Below, one piece after another: positions 3,323 through 5,110 of a stretch of DNA of 5,110 nt. The stretch is from JBFJWU01 sp041623475 [NCBI: bacterium]. GTDB taxonomy: Bacteria > J088. The stretch is taken from NCBI GenBank assembly GCA_041623475.1, contig JBFJWU010000267.1:1-5110 (forward strand). The letters are read 5' to 3'. Made by a program: the position numbers and the translations under genes. Numbering within the stretch: the first letter of the stretch is position 1; every line of letters begins with the position of its first letter. The notes below the pieces were generated by a model. The model saw only the letters and a list, made by a program, of their open reading frames with translations, was not told the DNA's origin and searched no databases.

Positions 3323-4498
3323 ATGATTGAACTCAGCAAACGCATCCAGCAGGTTGCGCCTTCGATTACGCTTGCGATCACTGCCAAAGCCAAGCAATTA
3401 AAGGCAGCAGGAGAAGATGTAATCGGTTTTGGAGCCGGAGAGCCGGACTTTGACACACCGGAGTCGGTAAAACAAGCCGCAATCGAGGCCTTGAACCAGG
3501 GCCGCACTAAATACACTCCCGTCGACGGTATTCCTGAGCTGAAGGACGCAATTCGCGACCGAATCGCCGCCGACCATCAATTGTCTTACGATTATCCCGA
3601 AATTGCGGTAACCGTGGGGGCGAAGCAGGCGATCTACAACCTGATTCAGGCACTTATTAACCCCGGAGACGGAGTACTGATACCGGCTCCGTACTGGGTG
3701 TCGTATCCCGACCAGGTACGGCTTGCGGATGGCGAGCCACAAATTGTGGAAACCCGGTTTGAAGACGGATTTCGCCTTTCCGCACAAGCGCTGGACGATG
3801 CCGTCAAGCCGAACAGCCGGTTGCTGATCCTCAACTCGCCGTGCAACCCGACAGGTGCTGCGCTCGGCCGGGATGCACTGGTCGAGATTGCCGACGTCGT
3901 CAGAAAGCACAATTTGCTGGTCATCAGTGACGAGATTTATGAAAAGTTGGTCTATGACGGTTTCCGGCAAGACAGTATCGTTGCGGTAGATCCGACCCTG
4001 AAGGACCAGACTGCGATCGTAAATGGAATGAGCAAGGCCTACGCGATGACCGGTTGGCGGCTGGGGTATATCTGTGGACCCCAGGAGTGGGTCCGTGCGG
4101 CTGTGAAACTCCAGGGCCAGTCGACGTCAAATCCTACATCATTTGCACAGTATGCAGGTGTAAAGGCGTTGCAACTTGACGACAGCGAAATTGAAGCCAT
4201 GCGCGACCAATTCGAAACCCGGCGTAACGAAATTGTCGATGCCTTGAATGACATCAGCGGTGTGTCCTGCCCAAAGCCAGACGGAGCGTTTTATGTGTTT
4301 CCGTCGATTGCCAATGCGATCGAGGGCCGGTTTGAAAATACCGTCGACTTTGCCGCCGAGTTGTTGAATTCTGAAAAAGTTGCAGTTGTGCCGGGCGAGG
4401 GTTTTGGCGCCCCGGGACACATCCGGCTGAGTTACGCCAGTGGCCTGGACGAAATCAGGTCAGGAATACAGCGAATCAAGCGTTTTATCGACGGCTGA
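3323..4498 (+). CDS. aspC: Class I PLP-dependent aminotransferase, aspartate aminotransferase-like (subgroup Igamma)
   Basis: Probable cytosolic enzyme transferring the amino group between aspartate and 2-oxoglutarate, giving oxaloacetate and glutamate. The 391 residues match the family length and resemble the Thermus and Bacillus type along the whole chain. Visible motifs are GAGEPDFDTPE (37-47), KYTPVDGIPELKDAI (63-77), PYWVSYP (123-129), NSPCNPTG (171-178, N175 contacting PLP), SDEIYE (202-207, D203 pairing with the pyridine nitrogen), NGMSKAYAMTGWRLGY (234-249, K238 as the Schiff-base lysine, R246 at the phosphate) and HIRLSYA (366-372, R368 binding the substrate alpha-carboxylate). K101 in GAKQA aligns with a lysine linked to acidic-substrate binding in the Thermus enzyme, as far as I recall. 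Some relatives also act on prephenate or other amino acids, so substrate is inferred. The ATG at 3323 fits the family N-terminus but lacks a clear Shine-Dalgarno; expression may depend on read-through from rplQ. Confidence 0.92.
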   Translation: MIELSKRIQQVAPSITLAITAKAKQLKAAGEDVIGFGAGEPDFDTPESVKQAAIEALNQGRTKYTPVDGIPELKDAIRDRIAADHQLSYDYPEIAVTVGAKQAIYNLIQALINPGDGVLIPAPYWVSYPDQVRLADGEPQIVETRFEDGFRLSAQALDDAVKPNSRLLILNSPCNPTGAALGRDALVEIADVVRKHNLLVISDEIYEKLVYDGFRQDSIVAVDPTLKDQTAIVNGMSKAYAMTGWRLGYICGPQEWVRAAVKLQGQSTSNPTSFAQYAGVKALQLDDSEIEAMRDQFETRRNEIVDALNDISGVSCPKPDGAFYVFPSIANAIEGRFENTVDFAAELLNSEKVAVVPGEGFGAPGHIRLSYASGLDEIRSGIQRIKRFIDG

Positions 4499-4503
4499 AC
4501 CCC

Positions 4504-4571
4504 GGACCGGCACCATTCGGTCCTCAACTTCCTGAACAGGCTCTGGACCGGATCCCGCGGGACTGCGGGAT
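4504..4571 (+). other. Two adjacent hairpins with a competing alternative pairing after the aminotransferase
   Basis: GGACCG (4504-4509) can pair with CGGTCC (4518-4523) over an 8-base loop, starting only 5 bases after the stop codon. ATCCCGC (4552-4558) pairs perfectly with GCGGGAT (4565-4571) over a 6-base loop. A second GGACCG at 4545-4550 could take CGGTCC away from the first, giving mutually exclusive folds. Neither hairpin is followed by a T-run, so these are not classical intrinsic terminators. They may protect the 3' end of the operon mRNA or act in Rho-dependent ending. Confidence 0.4.
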
Positions 4572-4613
4572 TGGTACAGGAGGGCGCAGCTGACAGCCCA
4601 GCCGCCGACAGTG

Positions 4614-4651
4614 TTGACATTTTTCCCCCAGCTACGAAAAAAATGCATACT
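4614..4651 (+). promoter_or_regulatory. Possible sigma-70-type promoter for the downstream structured transcript
   Basis: TTGACA at 4614-4619 is a perfect -35 consensus. The -10 is poor: AAAAAT at 4639-4644 matches 4 of 6 with a 19-base spacer, while CATACT at 4646-4651 matches 4 of 6 but lies too far (26 bases). Transcription would begin near 4650-4658. The case rests on the -35 and on the intrinsic terminator about 200 bases downstream. Confidence 0.35.
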
Positions 4652-4862
4652 TCACCCAGCATGGGCCGGTAATCGGCGGTTTCTGTGTCCGATAAACTGG
4701 CACGGCAATTGCTAAGTCAATATCAGACATTCGTCACACAGTTTGCCGGATGCCGATCGCTCCTTGGGGCAAATTTAACCCCACCCACCTGTGCACCAGG
4801 GAAGCGATCAGGCCTGCGGCGTCGGTAAGAGCCGAAGGCATTGCCTTCGGCTCTTTTTTTTT
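4651..4862 (+). ncRNA. Candidate small structured RNA of unknown family, about 210 nt
   Basis: No convincing reading frame lies here, yet the stretch has a promoter-like box before it, a strong intrinsic terminator at its end and several complementary segments. By hand I find: a hairpin CTGTGT (4683-4688) with ACACAG (4736-4741), continued outward by CGG (4677-4679) with CCG (4746-4748); a long arm GATCGCT (4755-4761) with AGCGATC (4803-4809), continued inward by CCTTGG (4762-4767) with CCAGGG (4796-4801), including one G-U pair, and outward by GCC (4752-4754) with GGC (4811-4813); and a possible closing stem, ACC (4654-4656) with GGT (4824-4826) flanked by CTT (4650-4652) with AAG (4827-4829). 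Some of these pairings exclude each other. Transcript ends are inferred. GCCTGCGGCG at 4812-4821 resembles a piece of E. coli 6S RNA, but the rest does not clearly match, so I assign no family. It could instead be a long 3' UTR of the aminotransferase. Confidence 0.35.
4827..4862 (+). terminator. Strong intrinsic (Rho-independent) terminator
   Basis: A perfect 13-bp stem pairs AAGAGCCGAAGGC (4827-4839) with GCCTTCGGCTCTT (4843-4855) over a 3-base loop, and nine T residues (4854-4862) follow. The T-run is on the + strand only, so it ends rightward transcription. It lies 329 bases after the aminotransferase stop, unusually far for that gene, and may therefore belong to a separate small RNA or close a long 3' UTR. 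Confidence 0.9.
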
Positions 4863-4949
4863 CGACAAAATCAATCTCGCACCCGGTTGCCTGCGCCAAG
4901 ATATGGTGCTGGTTGTCCGTTTGAGCACAAAATATACGCTACTTAGGCC

Positions 4950-4971
4950 TAATTATATGTTAATTATATGT
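4950..4971 (+). repeat. Two tandem copies of an 11-bp AT-rich repeat
   Basis: TAATTATATGT occurs at 4950-4960 and again, identical, at 4961-4971, followed by a partial third start (TAAATAGT, 4972-4979). The 11-bp period is close to one DNA helical turn, so both copies face the same side. The surrounding 4927-4990 is markedly AT-rich against the GC-richer genes and lies immediately upstream of a TTGACA box. It could act as an UP-element-like or bending region, or as paired protein-binding sites. Confidence 0.6.
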
Positions 4972-4988
4972 TAAATAGTTAAAATTAT

Positions 4989-5021
4989 TTGACATTTGCA
5001 GGGTCAAACTGTTAGTTTGAC
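4989..5021 (+). promoter_or_regulatory. Putative promoter overlapped by an operator-like perfect palindrome
   Basis: TTGACA at 4989-4994 is a perfect -35 box. With an 18-base spacer the -10 would be TAGTTT (5013-5018), which keeps T1, A2 and T6 only. GTCAAACT (5003-5010) and AGTTTGAC (5014-5021) are exact inverted repeats separated by GTT, covering the spacer and -10 and ending 6 bases before the ATG at 5028. The hexamer TTTGAC occurs three times: 4988-4993, 5016-5021 and inverted at 5003-5008. This arrangement resembles a repressor site, but the dyad could also form an mRNA hairpin. No regulator is identifiable. Confidence 0.4.
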
Positions 5022-5027
5022 GGTGAA

Positions 5028-5110
5028 ATGGTTTCCTGCTGTCGAATTCCGGGTCAATTGGCCGCCTGTGCGCTTGTCGTCATCGCGCATCTGTCTGGAT
5101 GTGCGACAAC
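5028..5110 (+). CDS. Probable lipoprotein, N-terminal part only
   Basis: The frame from ATG at 5028 is open to the window end (27 codons and two bases of the next). The translation has a short n-region with R6, a hydrophobic stretch LAACALVVIAHL (residues 11-22) and the lipobox LSGC with Cys at 25. This is the layout of a type II (lipoprotein) signal peptide, whose cysteine is lipidated and becomes the first residue after cleavage, placing the protein in the cell envelope. Function cannot be read from this fragment. An in-frame TAG at 5013 excludes longer starts. There is no well-spaced Shine-Dalgarno (GGTGA at 5022-5026 is too close), so translation may be leaderless or Shine-Dalgarno independent. 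It lies 530 bases after the aminotransferase stop and beyond a strong terminator, so it has its own promoter. Confidence 0.55.
   Translation, partial: MVSCCRIPGQLAACALVVIAHLSGCAT

Follow-up and report, generated by a model that had tools for sequence, protein, structure and literature searches.

The region between a class I aminotransferase gene and the lipoprotein reading frame that follows it raises the question of whether an independent small RNA gene lies there or whether the region is the untranslated end of the message upstream. We analysed it within the surrounding 5,110-nt stretch of DNA (the window, to which all coordinates refer). About 180 nt of foldable and probably non-coding sequence run up to a strong terminator here, which makes a small RNA a reasonable candidate. 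We tentatively favour a reading in which a discrete and structured RNA, non-coding, about 210 nt long and of no described family, is made from 4650-4862. This small RNA is plausible but unproven, and the likelihood of an ordinary structured 3′ UTR is almost as high.

Gene context and transcription signals

The ribosomal protein and RNA polymerase genes that precede the aminotransferase gene are transcribed in the same direction (Table 1), with rpsD placed between rpsK and rpoA, and we infer that rpsM-rpsK-rpsD-rpoA-rplQ-aminotransferase forms one operon. The top NCBIfam match of the aminotransferase was NF041091, with 402 bits against the model's own cut-off of 550. L17 (2544-3290) has a long acidic, Ala/Glu-rich C-terminal extension and a partial NCBIfam match to the 'sunset domain variant' of L17 (147 bits against a cut-off of 280). 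On the far side of the region, the lipoprotein frame, as read from the sequence, opens at ATG 5028 with a lipobox-like LSGC after a long gap. G+C drops to 0.29-0.30 at 4900-5050, a stretch that includes a second intergenic exact TTGACA, at 4989. Downstream of it, just 5′ of the lipoprotein ATG, lies an operator-like dyad, GTCAAACT-GTT-AGTTTGAC (5003-5021).

Table 1. Positions of the genes, signals and predicted structural elements discussed in the text.
Feature	Positions	Strand	Basis or remark
rpsM leader with Shine-Dalgarno-like GGGG (37-40), possible partner of the P3 loop	19-41	+	statistically marginal
rpsM, rpsK, rpsD, rpoA, rplQ, then class I aminotransferase		+	whole block co-directional
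Class I aminotransferase (aspartate-aminotransferase type)	3323-4498	+	gene upstream of candidate RNA
Exact -35 consensus TTGACA	4614-4619	+	sequence
Possible -10, AAAAAA (3/6, spacer 17) or AAAAAT (spacer 19)	4637-4642 or 4639-4644	+	
Candidate RNA body, predicted three-way junction	4650-4826	+	MFE, pair probabilities, codon usage
Closing stem P1, 5′ strand	4654-4667	+	pairs with 4811-4826 (predicted)
Closing stem P1, 3′ strand	4811-4826	+	predicted fold
Arm P2, 11 bp with one mismatch, then branched inner part	4668-4754	+	predicted fold
Hairpin P3, GAUCGCUCCUUGG/CCAGGGAAGCGAUC plus three inner pairs	4755-4809	+	predicted fold
Unpaired C-rich 20-nt P3 loop AAUUUAACCCCACCCACCUG, proposed base-pairing region	4772-4791	+	predicted fold
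CCCACCTG-N5-CAGG, motif common to short-form 6S RNAs	4784-4800	+	
Intrinsic terminator	4827-4862	+	terminator scan, inverted repeat, T-run

The earlier note on this DNA had described a complete transcription unit with a consensus -35 box and a perfect terminator. The -35 hexamer is indeed exact, and it is placed such that a transcript beginning near 4650 would start at the foot of the closing stem of the predicted fold, which argues for a discrete RNA. The promoter score at this TTGACA was equalled by 18 of 1000 dinucleotide shuffles of 4541-4660. However, the best -10 matches only 3/6 positions (spacer 17) and is not convincing, exact TTGACA occurs five times on the plus strand of the window (three times within genes), and a promoter scan of 4300-5110 on both strands called no site where 0.5 were expected. 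The proposed unit is thus half supported, with a strong terminator and a weak putative promoter.

The arms of the terminator (4827-4840/4842-4855) form a perfect inverted repeat, scored as 13 pairs with a 3-nt loop by the terminator scan, and T9 at 4854-4862 is the sole plus-strand run of at least six Ts beyond position 2042. The same scan of 4300-5110 found three sites against 1.4 expected, including a weak second terminator-like site of 5 pairs inside the candidate region (4665-4677). The intrinsic terminator of an independent sRNA gene is therefore present, although it may also belong to the upstream operon. It sits 328 nt past the aminotransferase stop codon. Plain operon terminators are usually closer, so the distance supports a discrete RNA. 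However, because it is the first strong terminator past that stop codon, it can equally serve the upstream operon. One explanation is thus that 4499-4862 is the long 3′ UTR of the ribosomal/RNA-polymerase/aminotransferase operon, with the terminator ending the operon, no separate RNA and a fold such as GC-rich sequence gives. The lack of a called promoter is consistent with this 3′ UTR, but 328 nt is long for a plain one, and the exact TTGACA, with a score that few shuffles reach, also speaks against it.

We also considered the opposite strand, where two consecutive exact TATAAT boxes (4968-4963 and 4957-4952) form a possible leftward promoter from which a functional transcript could run towards 4640. 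An exact TATAAT is accompanied there by a -35 matching 4/6 positions at a spacer of 19, but within 4300-5110 the minus strand has a single terminator-like site, which is weak (5 pairs) and falls inside the aminotransferase gene (4359-4344), and on neither strand did any Rfam match exceed the gathering score. We regard such a transcript as highly improbable.

Coding potential and predicted fold

The candidate region, 4650-4826, looks non-coding. Its plus-strand ORF of 47 aa at 4685-4828 has a codon-usage score of −0.19, within the range of wrong frames (median −0.18; the 1st percentile of 47-codon pieces of the six genes is −0.01), and no match in Pfam or PHROGs at E≤10. Codon scores of the 11 stop-free segments of at least 30 codons in 4499-5030 ranged from −0.30 to +0.02, and the highest-scoring of them, on the minus strand at 4632-4733, was above the 1st but below the 5th percentile of gene pieces. 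The small ORFs thus scored within or close to the range of wrong frames, and they matched no family. The same score is −0.23 where the lipoprotein frame begins; it can therefore overlook genuine coding sequence and is not decisive. The assertion that the region has no credible reading frame is therefore upheld in part: the plus-strand frame scores like wrong frames and belongs to no family, both of which favour a discrete RNA, but the score behind the first point also calls the lipoprotein start non-coding. This failing of the score is one reason to weigh a small protein gene in the 47-aa frame, as are the GGCGG that precedes its GTG start and the location of its stop codon, at the base of the terminator. 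Given its codon usage and the empty family searches, we consider a small protein gene very unlikely.

In the fold predicted for the candidate RNA, a short closing stem (P1) would hold two arms, P2 and P3, in a three-way junction (Table 1). Only one sequence underlies this predicted junction, and a review cautions that single-sequence structure predictions are not evidence of functional structure (PMC8250186). The long complementary arm previously placed at 4752-4767/4796-4813 is real with slightly shifted ends and corresponds to P3, whose 13 pairs (4755-4761/4803-4809 and 4762-4767/4796-4801) are interrupted by one bulged base. Most pairs of the stems have a probability of at least 0.8, which speaks against the 3′ UTR explanation, and the ten best of 363 suboptimal folds share the same shape. 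A local alternative that pairs GGGG with CCCC and CCUG with CAGG is less stable than P3 by 4.0 kcal/mol.

The stability of the fold has to be judged apart from the terminator. The fold of 4640-4862 has a z of −5.18, but terminator-free pieces reach only −1.81 to −2.92, so that the strong fold is owed mostly to the terminator. For 4650-4826, the MFE was −65.5 with a z of −2.38, and 1 of 200 shuffles was as good; this low frequency, together with the well-defined fold and its open C-rich loop, favours a discrete RNA. In a window-wide scan (168 windows of 177 nt, both strands), however, 4650-4826 had a z of −2.02 and ranked 12th, behind five windows located in genes. The six best of the 168 windows all contain the terminator, and 4621-4797, the other terminator-free window over the region, was absent from the best 14. 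We conclude that the stability of 4650-4826 without the terminator is ordinary (z about −2), no more unusual than that of some windows in genes, as the 3′ UTR explanation would have it.

If the favoured discrete RNA is made, it could arise by either of two routes: it may start near 4650 from the putative TTGACA promoter, or cleavage may release it from the rpsM-rpsK-rpsD-rpoA-rplQ-aminotransferase message at its 3′ end. Both routes would end at the terminator. The product would be an sRNA without a described family, positionally tied to ribosomal protein genes and the gene for RNA polymerase alpha; if none is made, the locus would illustrate that a strong terminator can disguise an ordinary 3′ UTR as an RNA gene.

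Related sequences and the question of 6S RNA

The earlier note recognised no known RNA family with confidence and suggested running covariance models for 6S, tmRNA, SRP RNA and riboswitches. The first point agrees with our searches, since Rfam gave nothing above the gathering score over the whole window or, with laxer filters, over 4610-4870 alone, and the suggested models likewise produced no match over their gathering scores. Six sub-threshold matches in 4610-4870 had E values of 0.25 to 2.1, and five of them overlap the terminator. The negative results in both regions extend to SRP RNA, RNase P RNA and known riboswitches. ARAGORN found no tRNA or tmRNA gene in the window, and tmRNA, also missing from the Rfam matches, was rejected. 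Elsewhere in the window, Rfam places the alpha-operon ribosome-binding-site element (RF00140) very weakly on the rpsM leader (18-80), which is also its location in E. coli; with 15.2 bits, E 4 and a gathering score of 38, the match is chance by its score.

No homologue of the candidate was found in the genomes and loci searched, which counts against a discrete RNA. An RNA model built from the window only matched none of 299 Pseudomonadota genomes, in a search that had no positive control; run with default filters against the window and 51 of the 78 loci, 6S loci included, it had a significant match to itself alone. The genes themselves have distant relatives. RpoA matched 288 of the 299 genomes, at 50% identity at best, and 6 loci in genome contigs, all titled as alphaproteobacterial groups (best 49%). 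When the window proteins were compared with 28 loci, S13 and S11 each matched 25 and RpoA and L17 each matched 26, whereas S4 and the aminotransferase matched none. The 26 loci that carry rpoA comprise 6 alphaproteobacterial and 20 Pseudomonadota loci, one of which (L009) comes from the same genome as another (L005), and the negative for the aminotransferase is weak because most of the 28 loci stop 1.5 kb past rpoA. From the low RpoA identity and the lack of S4 matches, the window probably stems from a lineage other than those searched, or from a very deep one. Among plasmids, a DNA search with the window gave no match, and protein searches with the aminotransferase and RpoA gave best places that were all below 60%. 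Viral contigs, searched with the aminotransferase, S4 and RpoA, gave one hit (L079, 49%). Positions 1-5231 of this IMG/VR contig carry the 49% identical aminotransferase near a resolvase-like gene and look like host DNA beside a mobile element. What we take to be a uvrB-like gene adjoins the aminotransferase where rplQ would be, which makes this a different locus.

A resemblance to 6S RNA had been suggested from the string GCCTGCGGCG, which we take to belong to the enterobacterial form of 6S. As this string occurs in only 1 of 30 6S genes examined (L029), it is no general 6S signature, and the hint fared no better in model searches. The Rfam 6S model (RF00013) had no match at E≤5 on the window or at E≤10 on 4610-4870 alone, although two Geminicoccaceae 6S genes under its cut-off still score 37-41 bits and a 6S match was present in 182 of 200 Pseudomonadota genomes. 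We also weighed a very divergent 6S RNA, a decoy that would bind RNA polymerase and serve as template for product RNAs, encoded shortly behind rpoA and missed by library models, using a model of our own. Twenty short-form genes from the Pseudomonadota 6S matches, chosen mainly by length (about 154-161 nt), were aligned (A1), folded and modelled (R1); they were 20 of 22 such sequences, leaving out a near-copy (L075, of L072) and one stored reversed (L007). We infer that the set is of an alphaproteobacterial type; L008 is from Geminicoccaceae. With filters off, R1 reached 7.1 bits at 4668-4755, the sixth of 49 noise-level hits in the window and not over the motif described below, and a 6S sequence profile had no hit in the window. 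The assignment to the 6S family was rejected, with Rfam, the 20-gene model, the sequence profile and the window-only model all negative.

Structure and one short motif bear on the same possibility. A hallmark of 6S, as set out in PMC8414754, is a large 5′ central bulge between the closing stem and the apical stem. No such bulge is predicted here: in the MFE structure of this single sequence, as in the top ten of its 363 suboptimal folds, P2 follows directly on P1 (4667/4668). As predicted, the candidate would fit 6S in length, at about 180 nt, and in branching (6S: roughly 150-200 nt, terminal stem, hairpin opposite the bulge), and the order of closing stem, apical arm and 3′ hairpin is that of the consensus of the 20 short-form genes. 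Single-sequence folds of 6S genes themselves vary: all four elements (closing stem, bulge, apical arm, 3′ hairpin) appear in L065 and nearly so in L077, whereas L074 and L037 fold differently. On its 3′ side the candidate also carries CCCACCT followed by AGG. CCCACCT(G/A) with AGG 3-9 nt on was found in 20 of 20 short-form and none of 8 long-form 6S genes (8 of the 30 6S loci returned by the genome search), and in 1 of 5000 shuffles of 4640-4862. Its absence from both strands of 280 kb of other DNA means little, because by a hand estimate about one occurrence is expected. Moreover, the motif was noticed post hoc and the set was picked partly by length, so it deserves modest weight and the 20 of 20 is not unbiased. 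In the short-form consensus fold the motif forms the 3′ hairpin, and the equivalent fold here is 4.0 kcal/mol weaker than P3. We retain a divergent 6S RNA as a rival because of this motif, and 6S is counted in PMC4227106 among the RNAs expected to evade homology detection; with the failed models and the abutting stems, we nevertheless judge it improbable.

Possible loop pairing and known systems

A discrete RNA folded as predicted would display the 20-nt C-rich loop of P3 as a single strand, which may pair with G-rich ribosome-binding sites of mRNAs. Among the seven starts in the window, the best partner of the loop (taken with base 4792) was rpsM, at −17.1 kcal/mol, with ACAGGU, GGG and the Shine-Dalgarno-like GGGG of the rpsM leader pairing with bases 4779-4792. 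Shuffled loops did as well in 82 of 2000 cases over the seven starts and in 43 of 2000 for rpsM alone, which lends some support to a discrete RNA. Of 4821 window segments, 2.0% pair with the loop as well; against a discrete RNA, three sites inside genes pair better than rpsM. We therefore regard the pairing hypothesis for rpsM as marginal, and pairing through the P3 loop, taken by itself as a mechanism, as doubtful.

In E. coli, ribosomal protein S4 exerts control at this gene cluster. A feedback of another kind can be envisaged, in which an RNA from the 3′ end of the S13/S11/S4/alpha/L17 cluster covers the Shine-Dalgarno region of the window's first gene, rpsM, with its C-rich loop. Transcribing the cluster to its end would then hold down its translation, in addition to S4 control or in its place. 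We give this feedback very little credence.

Three known systems offer comparisons. The candidate is like 6S RNA (RF00013) in length, predicted closing stem, predicted 3′ hairpin and the short motif of short-form 6S, but it fails the Rfam model and our own and has no predicted 5′ central bulge. A group of sRNAs has C-rich loops aimed at Shine-Dalgarno sequences; the candidate differs from them in having no Rfam family above the gathering score and resembles them in its predicted unpaired CCCCACCCACCU loop. OppZ and CarZ of Vibrio cholerae are RNAs that derive from the 3′ ends of operons and act in autoregulation (PMC7398697). Unlike these, the candidate is a putative transcript with a marginal pairing (82 of 2000 shuffled loops as good) and no known chaperone; like them, it is located where a gene cluster ends at its 3′ side, would use the terminator of that cluster and has a predicted accessible loop with a possible mRNA partner encoded in the cluster.
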